Under the pieces are notes generated by a model that did not search any database, was not told the DNA's origin, and saw nothing but the letters and a program-made list of their open reading frames with translations. DNA of 64,000 bases, from assembly GCF_900109465.1 (NCBI RefSeq), contig NZ_FOAZ01000014.1, positions 124,001 to 188,000 on the forward strand. The letters run 5' to 3'. Every line of letters begins with the position of its first letter. Position 1 is the stretch's first letter. Below, piece after piece: positions 24,628 through 35,984 of the stretch. Both the position numbers and the translations under genes were made by a program. This DNA is from Streptacidiphilus jiangxiensis. GTDB lineage: Bacteria > Actinomycetota > Actinomycetes > Streptomycetales > Streptomycetaceae.

Positions 24628-26268
24628 TCACGCCGTCAGCGCCGCGGTCACCACGTCCTTCGCCTCGGCCTGGACCCGGGTCAGGTGGTCGGGGCCGAGG
24701 AAGGACTCGGCATAGATCTTGTAGACGTCCTCCGTGCCCGAAGGGCGAGCGGCGAACCAGGAGTTGGCGGTGGTGACCTTGATGCCGCCGATGGCCGCGC
24801 CGTTGCCCGGGGCCTCGGTGAGGATGGCGGTGATCTTCTCGTCGGCGAGGGTGTCGGCGGTGACCTGGGCCGGGGAGAGCCGGGCCAGCAGCGCCTTCTC
24901 CTCGCGGGTGGCGGGGGCGTCGACGCGGGCGTAGGCGGGCGCTCCGAAGCGGTCGGTCAGGGCCGCATAGCGCTCCGAGGGGGTCTCGCCGGTGACCGCG
25001 GTGATCTCGGAGGCGAGCAGGGCGAGCAGGATGCCGTCCTTGTCCGTCGTCCACACCGAACCGTCGCGGCGCAGGAAGGACGCGCCGGCGGACTCCTCGC
25101 CACCGAAGCCGAGGGAGCCGTCGACGAGCCCGTCGACGAACCACTTGAAGCCCACCGGCACCTCGACCAGCTCCCGGCCGAGGTCGGCGGCGACCCGGTC
25201 GATCATCCCGGAGGAGACCAGGGTCTTGCCGACACCGGCCCGGGCCGGCCAGTCGGCGCGGTGACGGAAGAGGTAGTCGATCGCGGCGGCGAGGTAGTGG
25301 TTGGGGTTCATCAGCCCGGCGTCGGGGGTGACGATGCCGTGGCGGTCGGCGTCGGCGTCGTTGCCGGTGGCGATCGTGTAGCGGTCACGCTGCCCGATCA
25401 GCGAGGCCATGGCGTAGGGGGACGAGCAGTCCATGCGGATCTTCCCGTCCCAGTCCAGCGTCATGAAGCGCCAGGTGGGGTCGGTGAGCGGGTTGACCAC
25501 CGTCAGGTCGAGCCGGTGCTGTTCGGCGATGCGGCCCCAGTACGCGACGGAGGCGCCACCCAGCGGGTCGGCGCCGATGCGCACCCCGGCCGCGCGGACC
25601 GCGTCGAGGTCGAGGACGTTCGGCAGGTCGGCGACGTAGTCGCCGAGGAAGTCGTGGCGGCCGGTGCCGGGGGCGGCCAGGGCCCGCGCGTAGGGGATCC
25701 GTCGGACGTCCGTCATCCCGCCCGCGATGATCTGGTTTGCGCGGTCCTGGATCCAGGCGGTGGCCTCGGAGCCGGCCGGCCCACCGCTGGGCGGGTTGTA
25801 CTTGAACCCGCCGTCGGCGGGCGGGTTGTGGGACGGGGTGACCACCACTCCGTCCGCGAGACCCGAGGTCCGCGCCCGGTTCCACGTCAGGATCGCGTGC
25901 GACACGGCCGGGGTCGGGGTGTACCCGTCGGCGGAGTCGATCAGCACGGTCACGTCGTTCGCCGCGAACACCTCCAGGGCGGTGACGCGGGCGGGCTCGG
26001 ACAGGGCGTGGGTGTCGGCGCCGAGGAACAGCGGGCCGTCGGTGCCCTGCGCGTGGCGGTACTCGCAGATGGCCTGGCTGGTGGCGGCGATGTGGTCCTC
26101 GTTGAAGGCCGTGGCCAGGGACGAGCCGCGGTGCCCGGAGGTGCCGAAGGCCACCCGCTGCGCGGGGTCCGCCGGGTCGGGGTGGAGCGCGTAGTAGGCC
26201 GTCACCAGGCGGGCGACGTCGACGAGGTCGTCGGGACGGGCCGGTGTTCCGGCGCGTTCGTGCGGCAT
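24628..26268 (-). CDS. pgm: Phosphoglucomutase (alpha-D-phosphohexomutase)
   Basis: This is a 546-aa hexose-phosphate mutase moving phosphate between C6 and C1, the same length as the E. coli Pgm type. Landmarks are [12 protein letters not shown], the phosphoserine loop [18 protein letters not shown], the metal-binding loop [11 protein letters not shown], the sugar loop [12 protein letters not shown], and the phosphate-binding [23 protein letters not shown] 26268 is four bases after the SIS gene stop, so it is the last gene of the TetR-GT-kinase-SIS-pgm operon. In that setting it may convert GlcN-6-P to GlcN-1-P as well as, or instead of, glucose phosphates. Substrate preference cannot be read from sequence. 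Confidence 0.94.
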
Positions 26269-26272
26269 GCCA

Positions 26273-27250
26273 TCACTCCTGATCGAGCCCGCACGCCTGG
26301 TCGAGCCAGAGGCGCGAGGCCAGCAGTTCGGCGACAAGGGTCTCGGTGAGCAGGCGGACGTCGTCGTCCGTGTCGCCACGGTAGCGCAGGGTGTACGCCG
26401 CCCCGGGGACCTCGGCCCCGACGGCCACCACCGTGGACCCGCGTTGCCGGACCCAGTCCATCATCTCGTCCTCCCACCGTGCGCCTGACAGGAGCAGCAG
26501 CCGGTAGTCGGTGGTCCTGGTGAGGTAGACGTCGACGTGCGACCAGTCGCCGGTCTCGCAGGCGTAGGCCTGACGGCGCGGGCCTTCGCGCAGCATCAGC
26601 GCCGACTGCTGCGCGGAGGAGAGCCGGTGGGCGGGGGCGGCGACGTGCATGCCCTGCGGGCCGTCGAGCAGGCGGCGCACCTGGGGCAGCCACTCGGGCG
26701 CGCGGCCGGCCAGGTCGAGGGTGGCCGCGGCGGCGGCCCGGACCAGTTCGGTCAGATCGCGGTCCAGGCCGAGCAGGTGGCGTTCCAGGGCGAGCAGGTG
26801 CACCAGCGTGTGCTGGAAGGAGCGGCAGGCCACGCCTCCGGCCTCGGTGCCCGCGTGCATGTCCACCACCAGCGGCAGGGACGCGGCGAGCGCCGACTCC
26901 GGCTTGTTGGTCAGCAGCACCAGCGGCGCGCGGTCGCGGTAGTGCTCGACGGCGGCCAACGTCTCGCGCGAGCCGCCGCCGGCGGAGACCGCGACGACGA
27001 CGTCCCCCTCCCGGACCGCGGGCAGCAGGCTGCTGGAGGCCAGGACGCTCACGGCCTCCTGGCCGCGTGCCTGGAGACGGGCCGCGGCGACACCGGCGGC
27101 GTAGGCGGAGGAGCCCATGCCGACGAGGACCACGCGGCGGATCTCGTCCGGTAGGCACTTCCACGGGTCGGTGTCGGCCAACTGGGCGGCCAGGTTCATG
27201 AGATGGGCGGGCTTGGACGCGAGGTCGGCCGCGAACAGCGAAGGCTCCAC
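26273..27250 (-). CDS. SIS-domain sugar isomerase-like protein
   Basis: This is a 325-aa double-SIS protein like the isomerase half of glucosamine-6-phosphate synthase or AgaS/FrlB-type deaminases, with no glutaminase domain. First [23 protein letters not shown], then [17 protein letters not shown] with the sugar-phosphate Ser loop. The second has [17 protein letters not shown]. The GTG at 27250 has GAAGGA six bases upstream and lies two bases after the glucosamine kinase stop. Given the neighbours it may interconvert GlcN-6-P and Fru-6-P (plus ammonia) or isomerise a related amino-sugar phosphate. The classic SGxSxET-type loop is modified (SAGGGSRET), so the reaction is open. Confidence 0.82.
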
Positions 27251-27252
27251 GA

Positions 27253-28569
27253 TCAGTCCTTCAGTCTTTCCGGAAGCAGGTCGGTCAGGGAGAGGTCGGG
27301 CACGTAGACCCAGTGGGGAAGATGTCGCACGGCATAGAGGTACTCGCGCACCTCCTGTGCGTAGCGGAGGGGCGTCAGCAGCCGATCGTCGAACAGGTCG
27401 TCCGCGTCCAGCCTCGCCAGCGTGGTGCGGTAGGCGTCGAGGAAGGAACGCTGCGCGGCAGCGATCCAGGCCCGCACGGGGGCCGGATCGACGTCCGGCG
27501 TCCGGAAGACGACGACGCGCCCGACGTGGTCGAGGCTCGCGGTCATGCCGACGACGTCCAGCGCGGCGGGCTGACGGGCGGCCCGCTGATCGGCGGGCAG
27601 CACGGGGTTGCCATCGAAGTCGACGACGGCGTACCGCCCGTCGGCTCGCAGGATCTGTCCGACGTGGAAGTCGCCGTGCACGTCGATCAGCGGCGTCCCG
27701 GCCAGCGCGTCCAACTCGGCGTAGACGTCCGCGATACGCGGCGCCCAAGCCTTCAGCCGTTCGCCCTCGGCGCCCGGGACCGAGGCCACGGCCTCGTCGA
27801 GCTCCTCCCGCATCCGGACGCCCCACGCGGCGACGTCCGCCGCGGTGGCGGGAGTTCGGCCGCGGGCGGCCAGGGCGGCGTGCATGCGGGCGGTCAGCGT
27901 ACCGAGCTGTGCGGCCGGAAGCAGAGCTTGATCCATCGTCAGCTCGCCCCGGGCGAGGCGGCGGACGTCGTCGACGGCCCAGTCCCAGCCGTCGAGCGCT
28001 CCCGGCAGGTAGGCGACGACGCTCGCCAGCAGTACCGGTTGCGCACCCTCCGCGAGGGTGAGCAGGCCCCAGGGCCGGGGCATCTCCGTGAAGCCGCCAC
28101 GGGCGAGAGCGGCGATCCGCTGCGCCGCCGGGCTGCCCGGCTCCCCCTCGGCAGGCAGGCGGACGGCCCACTTGACGACGGCGCACTCGCCGACGATGAC
28201 GCTCTCGTTGGTCTGGTCGACGATGATGCCGCGCTCGCCCGTCACCGGGGCGGCACCGGTGAAGGCCTCCAGCACGAAGGCCGCGTCGGGCGTCGCGCCC
28301 CGGCGGGCCAGGGCGGCCACCAGGTGTTCGGCGGTGCCGTCGCCCGGCCGGGACCGGCGGACGCCGCCGGCGCCGTCCCGCACGAGCGGGACGGTCCACC
28401 GGGCGGCGTCGGCCGAGCGGACCACGCCGACGGCGTGGCCCTCGCCCAGGTCGAGGAGTGCGTCGAGCCGGAGCGGGCCGGGGACCGCCACCTCGGCGCG
28501 CCGCTCTCCCGAGGGCAGCACCAGGGCGGGGTCCGCGGCCGCGACCAGCTCGGACCAGTTCGGGGTCAC
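27253..28569 (-). CDS. Glucosamine kinase / maltokinase-like APH-fold enzyme
   Basis: This is a 438-aa kinase of the maltokinase/aminoglycoside-phosphotransferase fold. The N-cap ends in IIVDQTNESVIVGECAVVKW (ATP-binding Lys). The catalytic loop is IDVHGDFHVGQIL (Asp of Brenner's motif, with Gln where APHs have Asn). The metal loop is YAVVDFDGNP. The C-lobe has PAALDVVGMTASLDH. Unlike true maltokinases it does not sit with trehalose synthase; its setting of SIS, mutase and glycosyltransferase matches the actinobacterial glucosamine kinases described from Streptacidiphilus jiangxiensis. It would make GlcN-6-P from free glucosamine. The GTG at 28569 overlaps the GT stop by 4 bases. Glucosamine specificity is inferred from context. 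Confidence 0.8.
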   Translation of the reverse strand: MTPNWSELVAAADPALVLPSGERRAEVAVPGPLRLDALLDLGEGHAVGVVRSADAARWTVPLVRDGAGGVRRSRPGDGTAEHLVAALARRGATPDAAFVLEAFTGAAPVTGERGIIVDQTNESVIVGECAVVKWAVRLPAEGEPGSPAAQRIAALARGGFTEMPRPWGLLTLAEGAQPVLLASVVAYLPGALDGWDWAVDDVRRLARGELTMDQALLPAAQLGTLTARMHAALAARGRTPATAADVAAWGVRMREELDEAVASVPGAEGERLKAWAPRIADVYAELDALAGTPLIDVHGDFHVGQILRADGRYAVVDFDGNPVLPADQRAARQPAALDVVGMTASLDHVGRVVVFRTPDVDPAPVRAWIAAAQRSFLDAYRTTLARLDADDLFDDRLLTPLRYAQEVREYLYAVRHLPHWVYVPDLSLTDLLPERLKD

Positions 28570-29891
28570 GAGCCCGATGCTTCCACGTGCGTCCGCCCGA
28601 CCTGCTCGATCACGTCGGCGGCACGGCGCAGTCCGTCGCGGTCGCGGACGGCCTCGCCGACCTTGACGGCGCGCTCGCGCACCTTCGGGTCCAGCACGTG
28701 GGCGAGGGCGGCGTCCATCTCCTCGTCGGTGAAGTCGTAGGTGCGCAGGCGGACGCCGAAACCGGTCTCGTCCATGCGCTGCGCGTTGTCGTGCTGGTCC
28801 CAGAAGAGCGGGAGCACGATCATCGGCTTGCCGAAGTGCAGGCACTCGGTGGTGGTGTTGTTGCCACCGTGGGTGATGACCGCGTCCACCTGCGGGATCA
28901 GCGTGGTCTGCGGCAGGAACTCGGCGCCGACCATGTTGTCCGCGAGCTCGTACTCGGCGTGCTGCGGACCCTTGCTGACGATGTAGCGGTGCGAGGTCCG
29001 GCCGAGCGCGTCGACGAGCCGCTTCATCAGCTCGACGTCGGCGCTGCCGAGCGAGCCGAGGGAGAGATAGATCAGCGCGCTGCCCTCCGGCCGGTCGGCG
29101 ACGGAGGCCGGGATCTCGTAGACGGCGTCGGTCTCGCGCACGCTGGAGTCGATCCGGTGCCAGGTGGGGCCGAGCGGGCGCGCCTCGGTGTAGTCGGTCT
29201 CCTCGGGGAAGACGTAGAGGTTGGCGTGCCGGCTCTCGTGGATGAACTCCAGGTCGGGCAGCGGCGGCGCGCCCTGCTCGACGACCCAGGCGTTGAACTC
29301 CTCCCACATGGCCCGGTGGGTGCGGTCGTACTCGTGCCGGAACGAGCCCCATTCGCTGCGGTCGTCGCACGGCAGGCCGGAGTAGGGCGGTGCCACGTCC
29401 GGGCCGGAGACCTCCAGCGGGTTGCAGGAGACGATCCGCACGAACGGCACGCCCGCGGTCAGCAACGCCGGGAAGGCTATGACGTTGTCCTCGATGATCA
29501 CGTCGGGGCGGGTGCGCCCGATGATGGCCTTCAGCTGCGGCTCGCAGTAGCGGGCACCGTCGATCAGGGCCTGCCAGGTGGGCTGCATGAAGGTGGCCAG
29601 CTGGTCGACGGTGGGCTTGCGGAACTCCGGCGCGGTCTCCCGGATGAAGTCCTTCCAGAACTGTCCGGCGTCCTGCTGGGTCTCCGCGTCGCTCTCCTCG
29701 GCCGGCGGTGCGAGGTCGACGAGGTCCTCCTCGAAGCCGAGCGCCGTCAGCCTGCCCTGCCAGGACGCCTCGGCGGCGAACACCACGCGGTGTCCGCGGC
29801 GGCGCAGGATGTCGCCGACGCCGATGCACTGGTTGGTCGGACCGTAGGCCGACTCGGGCATGAAGAGGATGGTGAGCGGACGGACGGTCAT
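28566..29891 (-). CDS. GT1 (macrolide-type) glycosyltransferase
   Basis: This is a 441-aa GT-B glycosyltransferase. The N-terminal acceptor half begins MTVRPLTILFMPESAYGPTN. The C-terminal donor half has ALIYLSLGSLGSADVELMKR, then FLPQTTLIPQVDAVITHGGN and NTTTECLHFGKPMIVLPLFW-D-Q-H-D-N-A, the family nucleotide-sugar signature with the D/E-Q donor pair (WDQHDNAQR). It has no signal peptide. The acceptor cannot be inferred, but family members glycosylate small molecules. It is the first enzyme gene after the TetR gene (23 bp) and is coupled to the glucosamine kinase, so UDP-glucosamine or a derivative is a reasonable donor. Confidence 0.9.
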   Translation of the reverse strand: MTVRPLTILFMPESAYGPTNQCIGVGDILRRRGHRVVFAAEASWQGRLTALGFEEDLVDLAPPAEESDAETQQDAGQFWKDFIRETAPEFRKPTVDQLATFMQPTWQALIDGARYCEPQLKAIIGRTRPDVIIEDNVIAFPALLTAGVPFVRIVSCNPLEVSGPDVAPPYSGLPCDDRSEWGSFRHEYDRTHRAMWEEFNAWVVEQGAPPLPDLEFIHESRHANLYVFPEETDYTEARPLGPTWHRIDSSVRETDAVYEIPASVADRPEGSALIYLSLGSLGSADVELMKRLVDALGRTSHRYIVSKGPQHAEYELADNMVGAEFLPQTTLIPQVDAVITHGGNNTTTECLHFGKPMIVLPLFWDQHDNAQRMDETGFGVRLRTYDFTDEEMDAALAHVLDPKVRERAVKVGEAVRDRDGLRRAADVIEQVGRTHVEASGS

Positions 29892-29914
29892 GGGTCGCTC
29901 CTGATCGTGGGGGG

Positions 29915-30529
29915 TCAGTCGGCGGGCAGCGGGTGTCCCGTGGCGAGGCGGGCGTAGTCGAGGATCAGCCGGCTCGCGGCGGCGTGGTCGATGGAGGGGT
30001 GACGCGCCATCATGCGGTAGCCGTAGGCGTCCTCGAGGGCGACCAGGTTGCGGCCGATGGTCAGTGACGGGTCCTTGAGGGAGAAGACGCCCTGGGCGGC
30101 GCCGATCTCCAGGATCACCTGGTACATGGAGACCTGACGGTCGTACAGAGCGGTGAGCAGTGCGGCGTAGACGGTGTTGCGGCCGGCGGCCCCGCCGAGT
30201 TCGCACAGCAGGCGGACGTCCTCGTCCTCACTGTCCACGGGCAGGCCGCTGGTGATCGTCATGACCAGTTTGCGGACCGGGTCCGTGACACCCTCGACGG
30301 CCCGCAGGCGCTGGTCGTAGAAGCGCTCCATACCCGCCCGGTGGGCCTCCAGGAGCAGTTCCTGCAGGTCCGGATAGTGGTAGAGAACGGCACCGGACGT
30401 CAGTCCGGCGACCTCGGCCACCTGGTTCAACCGCACGGCGCTGCCGTGTTCCAGCATGGCGCGGCGCGCGGCGTCCACCAGGTCCGCCCTGCGCTCGGTG
30501 CGCCGCTGCTTGTTTCGAGCCACTTGCAC
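29915..30529 (-). CDS. TetR-family regulator of the amino-sugar locus
   Basis: This is a 204-aa TetR repressor. The N-terminal HTH is in RADLVDAARRAMLEHGSAVR followed by LNQVAEVAGLTSGAVLYHYP-D, the typical recognition helix ending in Y-H-Y/F. The C-terminal ligand domain is helical. The GTG at 30529 is preceded by GGAGGCAGGGG; a GTG six bases later is the alternative. It leads the minus-strand operon and is divergent from galU, with a perfect TGAAT-N4-ATTCA inverted repeat between them. It probably represses both directions; the inducer is unknown. Confidence 0.9.
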   Translation of the reverse strand: MQVARNKQRRTERRADLVDAARRAMLEHGSAVRLNQVAEVAGLTSGAVLYHYPDLQELLLEAHRAGMERFYDQRLRAVEGVTDPVRKLVMTITSGLPVDSEDEDVRLLCELGGAAGRNTVYAALLTALYDRQVSMYQVILEIGAAQGVFSLKDPSLTIGRNLVALEDAYGYRMMARHPSIDHAAASRLILDYARLATGHPLPAD

Positions 30530-30573
30530 TACCCCTGCCTCCAGTGCGCCGTACCGTATCCGCCTCCGCTCTT

Positions 30574-30587
30574 TGAATCCGCATTCA
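30574..30587. promoter_or_regulatory. Operator candidate in TetR-galU divergent promoter region
   Basis: TGAAT-CCGC-ATTCA is a perfect 5-bp inverted repeat. It lies 45 bases upstream of the TetR start and 118 upstream of galU, in the most AT-rich part of the 175-bp gap (CTTTGAATCC and ATTCAGAACGAAAGGAAAA). A TTGACG at 30613-30618 could be a -35 element for galU. Position and symmetry suit autoregulation of TetR. Confidence 0.5.
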
Positions 30588-30704
30588 GAACGAAAGGAAA
30601 AGGCCTGTTCTCTTGACGTTCTGCAGCCTTGTCCGGCCTGAACCCCGATGCAAGACTCCCGCAACGCTTCCGCTGGACGACGAGGCTCCCGAAGGGGGGA
30701 CACG

Positions 30705-31634
30705 ATGGGTCAGCACCCCGTCACGAAGGCGGTCATCCCCGCCGCAGGCCTGGGCACCCGCTTCCTACCGGCGACGAAGGCCACGCCCAAGGAGATGCTG
30801 CCCGTGGTCGACACCCCGGCCATCCAACTGGTCGTCGAGGAGGCCGCGTCCATCGGCCTGACCGACGTGCTGTTGGTGACCGGCCGGAACAAGCGCGCCC
30901 TGGAGGACCACTTCGACCAGGCCGCCGAGCTGGAGACGATCCTGGCCGCCAAGGGCGACGCGGAGAAGCTGGCCCTGGTGCGCCGCAGCACCGACCTGGC
31001 CGACGTGCACTACGTGCGGCAGGGGGAACCCAGGGGCCTCGGCCACGCCGTGCTGTGCGCGCGCCGGCACGTCGGCGACGAACCGTTCGCGGTGCTGCTC
31101 GGCGACGACCTGATCGACGCCCGCGACGAGCTGCTCTCCCGCATGGTGGCCCTGCGCGAGAGCTTCGGCGGCAGCGTGGTCGCGCTGACGGAGGTGCCAC
31201 GCTCGCAGATCCACCGCTACGGCTGCGCCGCGTTCGAGGCCTTCCCCGACGCCGGGCACCCCGACGTGGTCCGGGTGACGGACCTGGTCGAGAAGCCGGC
31301 AACGGACCAGGCGCCCAGCACCTACGCGGTCATCGGCCGCTACGTGCTCGACCCGGCGGTCTTCGACGTCCTGGAGGGCACCGCGCCCGGTCGCGGCGGC
31401 GAGATCCAACTGACCGACGCCCTGCGCGAGCTCGGCTCCCGCGTACCGGCTTCGAGCGGCGGCGGCGTGCTCGGCGTCGTCTTCCGCGGCCGCCGCTACG
31501 ACACCGGCGACCGGCTCTCCTACCTCCAGGCGGTGATCCGCCTGGCCTCGGAACGCGAGGACCTCGGACCCGACCTCAACGACTGGCTGCGCTCGTTCGT
31601 GGCCGAGCGCCTCGGTACCGGATCCCGCAGCTGA
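30705..31634 (+). CDS. galU: UTP-glucose-1-phosphate uridylyltransferase
   Basis: This is a 309-aa nucleotidyltransferase. The signature KAVIPAAGLGTRFLPATKAT carries the UTP-binding G-x-G-T-R-F-L-P. KEMLPVVDTPAIQLVVEEA, QGEPRGLGHAV, LLGDDLID (metal Asp) and LVEKP (Lys) follow in GalU order. The ATG at 30705 has GAAGGGGGGA upstream. In the locus it would make UDP-glucose or, since related enzymes tolerate GlcN-1-P, UDP-glucosamine for the glycosyltransferase. It is probably not the only galU of the genome, since it sits with secondary-metabolism-type genes. The aldehyde dehydrogenase gene follows 34 bp later. Confidence 0.92.
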   Translation: MGQHPVTKAVIPAAGLGTRFLPATKATPKEMLPVVDTPAIQLVVEEAASIGLTDVLLVTGRNKRALEDHFDQAAELETILAAKGDAEKLALVRRSTDLADVHYVRQGEPRGLGHAVLCARRHVGDEPFAVLLGDDLIDARDELLSRMVALRESFGGSVVALTEVPRSQIHRYGCAAFEAFPDAGHPDVVRVTDLVEKPATDQAPSTYAVIGRYVLDPAVFDVLEGTAPGRGGEIQLTDALRELGSRVPASSGGGVLGVVFRGRRYDTGDRLSYLQAVIRLASEREDLGPDLNDWLRSFVAERLGTGSRS

Positions 31635-31668: not shown

Positions 31669-33159
31669 ATGACCGACGGTCAGCACGTCGACGGGCTGCT
31701 CATCGACGGCACCTCCCGCCCCGGCGGCGGCGCGGTGCGCACCCTGCTGGACCCGGCCACCGGCGAACCGGTCGCCGAGATCACCGAATCCAGCCCGGCC
31801 GAGGTCGCCGCCGCCGTCGCCTCCGCGCGCACGGCCGCCGCGGGCTGGGCCGACCACACCGCGGGCGAGCGCGCGCGGGTGCTGCTGAAGCTCGCCGACC
31901 TGGTCGAGGAGCACGCCGAGGAGCTCACCGAGCTGGAGGTGCGCGAGTCCGGCAAGCCCTGGGCCACCTTCCGCGACGGCGAACTGCCTTTCGCGGCCGA
32001 CAACCTCCGCTTCTTCGCCGGCTCCGCCCGTTCCCTGGACGGCACCGGCGCCGGGGTGCTGAGCAAGGGCTACACCTCGATGCTGGTCCGCCGCCCGATC
32101 GGCGTGATCGGCAGCATCGCACCGTGGAACTTCCCGCTCGTCATGGCGGTCTGGAAGCTGGGCCCCGCACTGGCGGCGGGCAACACCGTCGTCCTCAAGC
32201 CCGCTCCCACGACGCCGAGTTCGACGCTGAGACTGGCCGAGCTGGCCCTGGCGGCGGGCCTGCCGGCGGGCGCGCTCAACGTCGTCACCGGCGGCGCGGA
32301 GGTCGGCAGCGCGCTGGTCACCGACCCCGGCACCGACATGATCTCGGTGACCGGATCCACCGGCACCGGCCGCGCGATCATGACCGCGGCGGCGCAGAGC
32401 GTGAAGCGCGTCCACCTCGAACTGGGCGGCAAGGCCCCCGCCCTGGTCTTCGCCGACGCGGACATACCCGCCGCCGCCCGAGCGATCGCGATGGGCGCGA
32501 CCTACAACACCGGCCAGGACTGCACGGCCGCCACGCGCGTCTACGTCCACCGCTCCCGCTACGCCGACCTGGTCGACCAGCTGCGCGCGACGCTCGCCGG
32601 CATCCGCGTCGGCGCCCCGCGCGACTCCGCCACCGACATCGGCCCGCTGGTCTCGGTCGAACAGCGCGACCGCGTCCACGGCTTCGTGGAGCGCGCCCGC
32701 AAGGCGGGTGCCCGCACGGTCGCGGGCGGCGAGCTCCCGGACGGTCCCGGCGCCTTCTACCACCCGACGCTGATCGTCGACGCGCAGCAGGACAGCGAGA
32801 TCGTCCAGGGCGAGGTCTTCGGCCCGGTCCTGGTCGTACTGCCCTTCGACGACGAGGACGAGGCCGTGCGCCTCGCCAACGACAGCCGCTACGGTCTCGC
32901 CTCCTCGATCTGGACCAACGACGTCGGCCGCTCCCTGCGCGTCGGTCACCGCCTCGACGTGGGCGTGACCTGGGTCAACGACCACCTCCCGATCGCCTCC
33001 GAGGCCCCGCACGGCGGCGTCAAGGGCAGCGGCTTCGGCAAGGACATGAGCCACGAAGCGATCCTGGAGTACACCGTCACCCGCCATTTCATGATCAAGC
33101 ACAGCGTGTTCGAGCATCCGGCGAGCGGGTCGGACACGTCCTCCTTCCGCCCGGCCTGA
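31669..33159 (+). CDS. Aldehyde dehydrogenase (NAD(P)+)
   Basis: This is a 496-aa aldehyde dehydrogenase of the betaine/aminobutyraldehyde type. Elements are IAPWNFPLVMAVWKLGPAL, the NAD motif VTGSTGTGRAI, the active-site Glu in HLELGGKAPAL, the catalytic Cys in YNTGQDCTAATR, and GEVFGPVLVVLPFD. GGAAGGA precedes the ATG. It follows galU in the same transcription unit. It could oxidise an amino-sugar-derived or polyamine-derived aldehyde (gamma-aminobutyraldehyde dehydrogenases share this sequence style). It converges on the P450-like gene with a 4-bp gap and no terminator. Confidence 0.92.
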   Translation: MTDGQHVDGLLIDGTSRPGGGAVRTLLDPATGEPVAEITESSPAEVAAAVASARTAAAGWADHTAGERARVLLKLADLVEEHAEELTELEVRESGKPWATFRDGELPFAADNLRFFAGSARSLDGTGAGVLSKGYTSMLVRRPIGVIGSIAPWNFPLVMAVWKLGPALAAGNTVVLKPAPTTPSSTLRLAELALAAGLPAGALNVVTGGAEVGSALVTDPGTDMISVTGSTGTGRAIMTAAAQSVKRVHLELGGKAPALVFADADIPAAARAIAMGATYNTGQDCTAATRVYVHRSRYADLVDQLRATLAGIRVGAPRDSATDIGPLVSVEQRDRVHGFVERARKAGARTVAGGELPDGPGAFYHPTLIVDAQQDSEIVQGEVFGPVLVVLPFDDEDEAVRLANDSRYGLASSIWTNDVGRSLRVGHRLDVGVTWVNDHLPIASEAPHGGVKGSGFGKDMSHEAILEYTVTRHFMIKHSVFEHPASGSDTSSFRPA

Positions 33160-33163
33160 CGCC

Positions 33164-34039
33164 TCACCCCGGCGTCGGCCATGCCACGGGGAGCGAGACC
33201 GGCCGGGCGGCCGGGCCGTCGAGGTCCCAGGGGACCTCGCGTTCCGCGATCGCCAGGAGCAGGCCCGGGAGGCGGGTGAACAGGGCTTCCAACGCCACGC
33301 CGACGAGCAGGCGCGTCAGCGCCGCTCCCGGCTCGGGCGTGGCCGCCGTCGGGTCCTCGCGGTGACGGTGGAGGTCGAACCTGTATGCCGTGTCGTGACC
33401 GGCCGCGGACCGGACGGGCACACAGACGGCCTCGCCGCGCCGGATGGTGACACCATGGAGGGTGAGGTCCTCGGTGGCGATGCGGGGTCGGCCGAGCACC
33501 CCGGCGTGGTGGCAGCGCAGGATCTCCGCGACGGCCTTGGGCCACAAGGACGGGTCCGCCAGACACACGCGGACGGCGCGGGGGTTGACCAGCAGCGTGA
33601 ACGCGCCGACGGCGAGCGCGGAGACCGGGGACGCGTCCGCCGCATCGGGCCACTGCTCCTGCAGCGGGCCGACGTAGGCCGGTATCAGATCGATCAGGTT
33701 CGGGCCCGCCGCCATGGCGTCCAGGAGTCGTGAGGTGCGGCGAACGATGACGGGACGCTGGGCCGACACGCCCTGGTCGGTGAGGTGCGGCGCGTGCCCG
33801 TCCGGTTCGACGGGGACGAGCCGCGGGTCGCTCAGTGCCCGGGCGATGTCGTCGTGCCGGGTGAGCATCCACACGGAGCGTCCCGACGGCAGGCGCACCG
33901 GGCAGACGGGCCGGTGCTTGCGCGCCCACTGCAGCACGGTCGGCGGCGTGCCGAGGGGTCCGGGCTCGAAGGGGTAGCGCAGGGGTAACTCGGGTGTCCG
34001 TCCGCCCCGCACTCCGGTCGTGCCGGTCCCGCCGGTCAT
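33164..34039 (-). CDS. Shrunken cytochrome P450-like protein without heme-binding loop
   Basis: This is a 291-aa protein aligning by eye with bacterial P450s (about 400 aa). P450-like parts are RHDDIARALSDPRLVPVEPD, DPSLWPKAVAEILR with the K-helix ExxR, DLTLHGVTIRRGEAVCVPV, YRFDLHRHRED, then VALEALFTRLPGLLLAIAE and SLPVAW. Missing are the C-helix H-x-x-x-R region, the I-helix A-G-x-x-T, and the FGxGxHxCxG loop; between RED and the L-helix there is only a short PTAATPEPGAALTRL. No frame restores the Cys. The frame stays open with normal codon use, so it looks kept rather than decaying. It could be a heme-free partner protein, as EryCII/DesVIII-type P450 homologues are, or a defunct enzyme. ATG overlaps the CDPS stop (ATGA). 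Confidence 0.7.
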   Translation of the reverse strand: MTGGTGTTGVRGGRTPELPLRYPFEPGPLGTPPTVLQWARKHRPVCPVRLPSGRSVWMLTRHDDIARALSDPRLVPVEPDGHAPHLTDQGVSAQRPVIVRRTSRLLDAMAAGPNLIDLIPAYVGPLQEQWPDAADASPVSALAVGAFTLLVNPRAVRVCLADPSLWPKAVAEILRCHHAGVLGRPRIATEDLTLHGVTIRRGEAVCVPVRSAAGHDTAYRFDLHRHREDPTAATPEPGAALTRLLVGVALEALFTRLPGLLLAIAEREVPWDLDGPAARPVSLPVAWPTPG

Positions 34040-34743
34040 GCCGCCTCCACCAGGGACCCGGCCGGGGTGACGACGGCGTAGCCCTGTCCTGCGGCGGGGG
34101 CGAGACGGGTGCTGCGGCCGTCGACCATGGGCTCCACGAGCTCGATGCGCCGGTGGTAGACGAACACCGAGCTGGGGACGGAGAGGATGGCCGGGGTGTC
34201 CAGCAGCAGCGGCAGTTCGGCGAGCGCGTAGCGCGCCGCCAGGTCCATGTGCGCGTCGGCGCGCTCCTCGCCGCCCGCGGCGTGCCGCACGGCGGTCCTG
34301 GCGACGGCCCGGCAGGCGTCCCTCACGACGGGGTCGTGCGCGTAGGCCTCCTCGGCCGCCGCCCGCAGCGCGGCGTAGGCGGGACGGTTGGCCAGCTCCG
34401 TCCAGGAGTGCACCCGCTGCCGCCAGTCGGCGATGCCGGCCCGCTGCAGCGCACGGTAGGCCGGATTGCGCAGCTGCGGCCCCACCTTGCGGGCCCGGTG
34501 GACCGCCTCCAGGGTCTCCATGCCGCCCGCCATCAGCGTGTAGGCGGCCTCGTAGCCGGGCACCAGGACGTCGACGCTGCGGAACTCCCGGCAGGCCCAG
34601 GCCACCAGCTCCTCGATCCGGCGCGGCCGGTAGTAGCTGTTCCAGGGCGAGATGCCCAGCAGTGCGTGGTCGCGCCGGGCCACCATGTCGACGCTCGCGG
34701 GTGAGAAAGGCTCCACGACGAACGTGGCGGCGGCCGTGCTCAC
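34036..34743 (-). CDS. tRNA-dependent cyclodipeptide synthase (NYH type)
   Basis: This is a 235-aa CDPS, close to AlbC's 239 aa. These enzymes use two aminoacyl-tRNAs to make a diketopiperazine. HALLGISPWNSYY carries the catalytic Ser32 (AlbC Ser37) and Asn35 (Asn40). RYALAELPLLLD has Tyr172 and Glu176 (AlbC Tyr178/Glu182). LSVPSSVFVYHRR gives Tyr196-His197, so the N-Y-H subgroup. The end GQGYAVVTPAG matches the family. GTG 34743 overlaps the upstream small gene (GTGA), and the stop overlaps the P450-like start (ATGA). The residues chosen cannot be predicted safely. Alignment was by recall, but the motif order is distinctive. Confidence 0.9.
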   Translation of the reverse strand: MSTAAATFVVEPFSPASVDMVARRDHALLGISPWNSYYRPRRIEELVAWACREFRSVDVLVPGYEAAYTLMAGGMETLEAVHRARKVGPQLRNPAYRALQRAGIADWRQRVHSWTELANRPAYAALRAAAEEAYAHDPVVRDACRAVARTAVRHAAGGEERADAHMDLAARYALAELPLLLDTPAILSVPSSVFVYHRRIELVEPMVDGRSTRLAPAAGQGYAVVTPAGSLVEAA

Positions 34744-34949
34744 GACCCCGACTCCGCGTCTGCTCCCTGCTCGCGCTCCTTCGCTTCCAGCGCGTCGTTC
34801 AGGCCCCGGGTGATGAAGTCGATCGCCTCGATCGTGTAGATCCACTGCTGACGGTCCCTCATCTCCTCCGTCAGCTCCACCAGTCGCCTGTTCTCGCTGT
34901 TGCGGATGGCAGCCCGCACATCGTCATCGGTCAGCCTGGGCCCGGCCAC
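34740..34949 (-). CDS. 69-aa protein coupled to the cyclodipeptide synthase
   Basis: This is a small acidic, helix-rich protein beginning MAGPRLTDDDVRAAIRNSEN, with RRLVELTEEMRDRQQWIYTI and AIDFITRGLNDALEAKERE following. No family is recognised. GTG 34949 was chosen for GGGGGAG seven bases upstream; earlier in-frame starts (ATG 34991, GTG 35006) lack that signal. Its stop overlaps the CDPS start by 4 bases, so it is made together with the synthase. It could be a partner or small subunit; AlbB-like cyclodipeptide oxidase subunits are similarly small, but I see no convincing similarity. No membrane segment is present. Confidence 0.7.
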   Translation of the reverse strand: MAGPRLTDDDVRAAIRNSENRRLVELTEEMRDRQQWIYTIEAIDFITRGLNDALEAKEREQGADAESGS

Positions 34950-35126: not shown

Positions 35127-35984
35127 ATGAATGCCCGCCCCCTGACCCTGATGGCGGTGCACGCCCACCCCGACGACGAGGCCACCGGAACCGGCGGCGT
35201 CCTCGCACGCTATGCACAGGAGGGCATGCGCACGGTCCTCGTCACCTGTACCGACGGCGGCTGCGGCGACGGCCCCGGGGGCGTCAAGCCGGGCGACCCG
35301 GGGCACGACCCGGAGGCCGTCGCGGCGATGCGCCTCGACGAGCTCAAGGCCAGCTGCGAGGTCCTGGGCGTCAGCCACCTGGAGACCCTGGGTTACGCCG
35401 ACTCCGGGATGATGGGCTGGTCGACCAACGACGCCCCCGAGTCCTTCTGGCAGACGCCCGTGACGGAGGGCGCGGCCCGCCTCGCCGAGCTCCTGCACCG
35501 CTACCGGCCCGACGTGGTCGTGACGTACGACGAGAATGGCTTCTACGGCCACCCCGACCACATCCAGGCGAACCGCATCACCATGGCGGCCCTGGAGCAG
35601 TCCGGGCTGACGCCGAAGGTCTACTGGACGACCGCCCCGCGCTCGATGATGCAGCGGTTCGGCGAGGTCATGCGCGAACTCGGCTCGGACTGGGACGAGC
35701 CGGCCGCCTCCGAGGGCGCCGACGCCGAGACGCCCGAAACGCCCGAGGTGCCGGAGATCGGGCTCCCGGACGAGGAGATCACCACCTGGGTGGACACCCG
35801 CGAGTTCGGCGGCCAGAAGTTCGACGCGCTGGCCGCGCACGCCAGCCAGGGCGAGAACATCTTCTTCCTCAAGATGGGCAAGGAGAGGTTCACCGAGCTG
35901 ATGGGCGTGGAGACCTTCGTCCGGGTCCGGGACACCACCGGCGCGCCCGTGCCCGAGAACGACCTCTTCGCCGGCCTGCGCTGA
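35127..35984 (+). CDS. PIG-L/LmbE family deacetylase, Mca/MshB-like
   Basis: This is a 285-aa zinc-dependent N-acetylglucosamine deacetylase-fold protein. MAVHAHPDDEATGTGGVLAR has the metal-binding A-H-P-D-D-E and NGFYGHPDHIQANRI the second His ligand H-P-D-H. TCTDGGCGDGP lies in the usual loop. It resembles mycothiol conjugate amidase (Mca) and MshB. An acidic insertion rich in Glu/Pro (ETPETPEVPE) is at about residue 195. The ATG at 35127 has CCGGAGGA upstream. It may process mycothiol conjugates or deacetylate a GlcNAc-containing product; the nearby amino-sugar locus makes the second idea attractive but untested. A hairpin terminator follows. Confidence 0.87.
   Translation: MNARPLTLMAVHAHPDDEATGTGGVLARYAQEGMRTVLVTCTDGGCGDGPGGVKPGDPGHDPEAVAAMRLDELKASCEVLGVSHLETLGYADSGMMGWSTNDAPESFWQTPVTEGAARLAELLHRYRPDVVVTYDENGFYGHPDHIQANRITMAALEQSGLTPKVYWTTAPRSMMQRFGEVMRELGSDWDEPAASEGADAETPETPEVPEIGLPDEEITTWVDTREFGGQKFDALAAHASQGENIFFLKMGKERFTELMGVETFVRVRDTTGAPVPENDLFAGLR

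Follow-up and report, generated by a model that had tools for sequence, protein, structure and literature searches.

A cyclodipeptide synthase gene coupled to that of a heme-less P450 homologue in Streptacidiphilus jiangxiensis

Few routes to bioactive diketopiperazines are as small as the cyclodipeptide synthase (CDPS) pathways, in which P450s often serve as tailoring enzymes. The CDPS itself is usually described as an enzyme that works alone. In the stretch of DNA analyzed here (the window; 64,000 nucleotides of a 9.5 Mb genome), a CDPS gene is joined to the gene of a P450 homologue that has lost its heme site. This locus raises the question of whether such a P450 is retained as a protein beside the CDPS and, if so, what it does there. 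A sequence-only reading of the locus had described an operon of three genes linked by two 4-base overlaps. Rereading of the sequence showed that their coordinates, strand, lengths and overlaps were correct (Table 1).

Table 1. Features of the CDPS operon and its flanks (positions in the window)
Feature	Position	Strand	Remark
Small protein, 69 aa, operon gene 1	34740-34949	minus	ORF, GTG start, orphan
Cyclodipeptide synthase (CDPS), NYH type, 235 aa	34036-34743	minus	Catalytic residues intact
Heme-less P450 homologue, 291 aa, operon gene 3	33164-34039	minus	Descendant of a CDPS-associated P450
GTGA stop-start overlap, small gene/CDPS, 4 bases	34740-34743	minus	
ATGA stop-start overlap, CDPS/P450-like, 4 bases	34036-34039	minus	GGAGG ribosome-binding site just upstream
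Aldehyde dehydrogenase gene	31669-33159	plus	Operon flank
PIG-L/mycothiol-amidase-like gene	35127-35984	plus	Other operon flank

Within the window's operon, no tailoring gene was found, whether for an intact P450 or for another enzyme. Conserved synteny was considered and rejected: the PIG-L-type gene occurred in 11 of the 13 other genomes of the genus, with no empty site readable, and in five PIG-L-type loci (83-85% identical, 9-12 kb each) it was the sole window gene found. The aldehyde dehydrogenase was matched in one of these 13 genomes (G030, 70%).

The CDPS matched Pfam PF16715 (E = 9.1e-59; 199 bits, cut-off 27) and NCBIfam TIGR04539 (E = 4.7e-69; 232 bits, cut-off 45), and had seven solved relatives, AlbC and YvmC among them. 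When the protein was aligned with AlbC, the catalytic residues claimed for an NYH-type enzyme (S32, N35, Y172, E176, Y196 and H197) were all present, none having been lost. Further, G30 was kept, and the full set GSNYEYH was kept in 13 of the 17 rows compared. The window CDPS is a clear member of its family, and it probably forms a cyclodipeptide from aminoacyl-tRNAs. Its pocket motifs, at positions taken from the available text of PMC5816076, are LGLPWLLF (P1) and VTAHRIE (P2). Enzymes with similar P1 motifs load Pro, Leu or Phe/Ile in Table 2 of that paper, whose authors, in the same available text, call pocket-based substrate prediction uncertain. The CDPS of G020 (L038), which is 51% identical to that of the window, carries the pair LGFPWLVF/TGARRMD, exactly a Leu-loading row of this table. 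We took this row to be CDPS 77 of Streptomyces scabrisporus, the table text carrying no row numbers; CDPS 77 makes cyclo(Leu-Val), cyclo(Leu-Ile) and cyclo(Leu-Leu) (PMC5816076, available text). Because of the window's pocket motifs and the match of the G020 pair to a Leu-loading row, our best guess for the product is an aliphatic or prolyl cyclodipeptide.

The P450-like protein matched 212 distinct sequences of solved structures, of which the best 60 were nearly all named P450s. Its sole Pfam match was p450, over residues 168-212 (22.1 bits versus a cut-off of 22.8). The protein was 123 residues short of the nearest full-length P450, across eight gapped stretches. The FxxGxxxCxG heme-ligand loop was absent, as the sequence-only reading had noted, and the four columns that hold HFCL in relatives were deleted. 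Further, the Arg of the C-helix HxxxR motif and the I-helix oxygen-activating segment were missing, lying inside deletions 99-105 and 216-248, respectively, relative to L037 (helix names by inspection). The ExxR of helix K was retained (E172-x-x-R175, in invariant alignment columns). An AF2 model, based on an alignment of 8 rows, had a P450 fold with 38 residues below pLDDT 50; residues 1-13 were below this value, and no helix of at least 4 residues preceded residue 34. The remaining parts, which are the sheet and first helices at the N terminus, helix K, the beta sheets and the final long helix, are predicted to fold as a shrunken P450 scaffold. The score against the model of CDPS-associated P450s, TIGR04538, was 31.3 bits (cut-off 500), and the six intact relatives scanned were also below the cut-off (80-107 bits). 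The coupling of a CDPS to a non-catalytic P450 homologue, which the sequence-only reading had found unfamiliar, was borne out, and our searches of the open-access literature gave no description of a CDPS cluster with a truncated or heme-less P450. The unmodified diketopiperazine that this reading had suggested is a putative product.

Relatives of the CDPS were sought in 394 genomes of the family, the window's own included (144 matched at E ≤ 1e-5), in 392 genomes of genus g9, a set that overlaps the family genomes (10 matched at E ≤ 1e-38), and in plasmids (16 records), where the two best relatives came from Streptomyces and Embleya. When genome contigs were searched with the CDPS, a single weak match appeared, in a clostridial stretch. 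In most of the closest loci, the CDPS was accompanied by a P450 of approximately 400 aa with the Cys loop, often together with a class I methyltransferase; those without a nearby P450 included G020, G151 and the Embleya plasmid. The 4-base overlap of CDPS and P450 genes was present in five relatives (L039, L044, L046 and L066, from our own gene calls, and L075, annotated), the spacing was 23 bases in G378a (L037), and the genes overlapped by one base in G046. Among the P450s of the window's clade, 12 of 15 had the Cys loop and full length, and 11 of those 12 lay beside a CDPS. Because related loci usually carry a full-length P450 in the same slot, five of them with the same overlap, the window gene is a degraded form of an ordinary CDPS-associated P450 gene and still occupies the inherited position.

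The search brought up several other settings of CDPS genes. The window's genome carries a second CDPS (L049 6678-8616, G000:C67), 32% identical to the first, whose gene overlaps that of an intact P450 with FGGGQHYCPA. Related loci that look decayed (L043 7073-8552; L068 6449-7451) were those of G151, in which R replaces S32 and F replaces Y196 of the CDPS, and G502, in which a shortened CDPS and a shortened methyltransferase stand beside an intact P450. An EF-hand gene lay directly upstream of CDPS-P450-methyltransferase genes in G147 (L039 9299-9853) and in pST1 (L075 612-1163), a linear plasmid of Streptomyces tsukubensis that also carries TniQ-family and transposase genes. In G278, G656 and G499 (L045, L070 and L071), the CDPS gene was flanked by a MerR-like regulator on one side and by a heavy-metal P-type-ATPase-like gene on the other (names from sequence starts), a setting unlike biosynthesis. 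A CDPS and an intact P450 also occurred among sugar and transfer genes (L041 4022-12139, L042 4055-12190, L067 3866-11370 and L046 6506-11737). In G232 and G368, they were accompanied by an EryCIII-like glycosyltransferase, an acyltransferase-like gene and sugar-nucleotide genes, in G590 by sugar genes with no glycosyltransferase called, and in G136 by a glycosyltransferase and TylF- and MycE-type methyltransferases; several gene names at these loci were assigned from sequence starts. These gene sets possibly make glycosylated cyclodipeptides, which are foreseen in the available part of PMC5767969.

We inspected 43 CDPS loci, namely two of the window's own genome, those from the best matches of the family and g9 searches, and two plasmid records. 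The best-scoring P450 frame per locus, found with a panel of seven P450s, was tested; in the 3.7-kb loci, about 1.5 kb was viewed on each side. A P450 lay within 2.5 kb of the CDPS in 29 loci, 26 with the Cys motif and 3 without it. The heme-less loci were the window, G046, which belongs to the same genus, and G510, of genus g9. G046 and G510 have a common island of approximately 7.2 kb and approximately 95% identity. It encodes a CDPS, a heme-less P450 of 388 aa, a P450 of 413 aa that looks intact, an FAD monooxygenase and a methyltransferase. In this heme-less P450, Leu occupied the Cys column and the loop was rewritten with its length unchanged.

The G046 and G510 copies were both 388 aa long without any indel and differed at 59 nucleotides, 31 of them synonymous and 28 nonsynonymous changes (dS 0.108, dN 0.033, dN/dS 0.311; Nei-Gojobori). 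Because the loss of the heme site is common to both copies, these differences most simply postdate it. Neutral simulation with the fourfold-site spectrum gave an expectation of 45.1 ± 3.3 nonsynonymous changes, and none of 5000 runs had 28 or fewer; codons with multiple hits were averaged in the observed pair, whereas the simulations treated them as fully nonsynonymous, a slight bias toward constraint. Further, 2530 of the 5000 runs acquired a stop. We concluded therefore that the heme-less P450 beside the CDPS of G046 and G510 is retained as a protein under purifying selection. Its constraint was weaker than that of three of the four island neighbors (dN/dS: CDPS, 0.170; intact P450, 0.117; monooxygenase, 0.157; methyltransferase, 0.368 from 21 changes) and no less than that of two pairs of intact P450s outside the island (0.399 and 0.358). 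Full P450s at homologous loci, which the sequence-only reading would have taken as a sign of strain-specific decay, do prevail in the window's clade. Strain-specific decay is not the full explanation, because a heme-less P450 also accompanies the CDPS at two other loci, in two genera, and that version is under purifying selection.

The lesions of the window copy are deletions, larger than those of the G046/G510 version with its rewritten loop. A P450 tree without the far outgroup joined the window to G046/G510 weakly (53/92) and with a long-branch warning. A CDPS tree that joined them was 3.73 log units worse (p-AU 0.092), and one that joined the window to the G378/G502 group had a p-AU of 0.209. 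An apparent excess of odd residues common to the window and G046/G510 (12 of 39) disappeared when all other clade pairs served as the control (24% shared; P = 0.22), and a third alignment mode gave 8 of 35 (P = 0.59). The heme site may have been lost in one event or in two.

Our best explanation, which we consider about evenly poised between right and wrong, is that the window P450-like protein is a non-catalytic, P450-derived partner of a CDPS that makes an aliphatic or prolyl cyclodipeptide. The operon would turn aminoacyl-tRNAs into a small aliphatic or prolyl-containing cyclodipeptide. Gene 3 stems from the P450 that usually accompanies the CDPS in this clade and has lost the elements that hold or use heme. 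Its product, made in step with the CDPS, would be kept as a non-catalytic partner and may, for example, stabilize or allosterically tune the synthase or a later enzyme, as EryCII does for EryCIII. The inherited slot and coupling, and the recurrence of heme-less P450s at 3 of the 29 P450-bearing CDPS loci, argue for this role.

The main rival is decay: an ordinary CDPS-associated P450 would have lost the heme domain in this lineage, its frame still being open only because decay is recent or the DNA is GC-rich; the CDPS would then work alone or also be on its way out. The intact P450s that prevail in the clade, the removal of the heme pocket by large deletions, and decay at other clade loci (the CDPS of G151, the CDPS and methyltransferase of G502) all fit a relic. 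However, the reading frame of the window gene was intact across all of its several separate deletions, third-position GC was normal (0.87-0.97 in 9 of 9 sliding windows), and the start signal and overlap were kept. The retained columns had diverged only slightly further than those of an intact P450: pn/ps against relatives was 0.64-0.89 for the window gene and 0.58-0.78 for the intact long-branch P450 L044. The absence of stops is weak evidence, because open frames are cheap in GC-rich DNA. The frame around the gene was open for 544 codons, and 12% or 39% of neutral runs, which modeled substitutions only and no indels, remained free of stops for a neutral share of the divergence of one half or one fifth, respectively. 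At E ≤ 1e-40, with the best 6 candidates per genome scored, a match was found in 1 of the 393 other family genomes (G378, intact), and no close relative with the window's truncation was detected. Further, when the 14 genomes of the genus were searched with the G046 heme-less P450, the best matches were G046 itself and the window, followed by the intact P450 of G046 (L072; 34%) and G019 (28%). Measurable selection was therefore limited to the G046/G510 version, whose constraint also counts against a relic. Decay is a serious contender with somewhat less than an even chance, and the window copy itself may be functional.

It is improbable, in our view, that the heme-less P450 serves another tailoring enzyme, such as an intact P450 or a glycosyltransferase, rather than the CDPS. 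In G046 and G510, it does directly precede the intact 413-aa P450, which is under stronger constraint. In the window, the nearest glycosyltransferase found (28566-29891; UDPGT/MGT-like, below the MGT cut-off) lies 3.3 kb from the operon, on the same strand and separated from it by two plus-strand genes, with phosphoglucomutase and GalU-like genes near it. However, the window's operon has no such enzyme, and the P450-like protein scored 44.5 bits on the glycosyltransferase activator model TIGR04515 (cut-off 343), on which six intact P450s scanned scored 84-125 bits. Further, its model, in which residues 1-13 are below pLDDT 50, has no helix of at least 4 residues before residue 34, where EryCII has an interface helix according to the available part of PMC3391682, and two reference glycosyltransferases were unmatched among the genes called around the partly annotated CDPS loci of G046 and G510. 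As a separate observation, 24628-31634 contains genes for a phosphoglucomutase, an SIS-domain protein, a 438-aa protein without a Pfam match, the glycosyltransferase, a TetR-like regulator and a GalU-like protein, possibly a set for UDP-sugar supply and glycosyl transfer. That the P450-like protein is still catalytic, with an unusual mode of binding heme or some other cofactor, would suit the predicted persistence of the P450 fold but is hardly credible, as the Cys, the Arg of the C helix and the oxygen site of the I helix are all absent.

A GGGGGAG site precedes the start codon of the small gene, and its GC content by codon position was 0.66/0.44/0.87, with a coding-like third-position value. 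The protein had been called unrecognized, and this held: scanned as a longer 88-aa form, it had zero Pfam matches and a sole, meaningless NCBIfam match (13.5 bits, cut-off 421); relatives were absent from the 393 other family genomes at E ≤ 0.001, and a plasmid search at E ≤ 0.1 was empty. The sole match outside the window's genome, in G432 (33%, E = 0.001, 99 other relatives searched), lay inside a 703-aa frame and was taken as chance. AF2 gave a single helix from residue 8 to 66 (pLDDT 92, single sequence); a coiled coil was rejected, given that 4057 of 5000 shuffles reached its heptad hydrophobicity. We guess that the protein is a helper of the CDPS and the P450-like protein.

To our knowledge, few non-catalytic P450s are known. 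If our reading is true, a selected heme-less P450 beside a CDPS adds a second system to these few and suggests that a CDPS can have a protein partner. Further, the idea is directly testable in the G046/G510 island, where selection is measurable. A broader and more doubtful reading is that heme-free P450 pseudoenzymes form a recurrent, selected class of CDPS partners in this family. They would have arisen at least once, perhaps twice, from the operon's own tailoring P450 and would now tune or scaffold the pathway. They would then represent a second invention of the role of EryCII, the window's helper set being a shrunken P450 and an orphan one-helix protein.

The systems described in the available parts of three papers resemble the window in different respects. 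The window CDPS and CDPS 77 are both NYH enzymes, but the pocket residues of the former (LGLPWLLF/VTAHRIE) differ, and its product may contain prolyl or leucyl (PMC5816076). CDPS-associated P450s include bicyclomycin BcmD, CYP121, cyclodipeptide dimerases and nucleobase-adding P450s, all of them working enzymes (PMC7954767). The window likewise unites a CDPS and a P450-family protein in one gene set, and its third gene descends from this kind. In contrast to the described P450s, which are working heme enzymes, its heme site is gone. EryCII, a P450 that lacks the Cys, the C helices and parts of helices G and H, stabilizes and activates the glycosyltransferase EryCIII (PMC3391682). As with EryCII and DesVIII, a P450 homologue that lacks the heme cysteine and these helical parts may act here as a stabilizing partner, a role assigned by analogy. 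However, EryCII keeps the I helix, whereas the window protein has lost the I-helix site; EryCII has an N-terminal interface helix, A'', whereas the window model, of low confidence at residues 1-13, shows none; and EryCII pairs with a glycosyltransferase, whereas the window protein is coupled to a CDPS (PMC3391682). EryCII was not among the best 50 rows listed by VIA-align for the window model, which excludes nothing. The window protein falls outside the EryCII-type activator family by score but may act similarly, by analogy, on a different partner.
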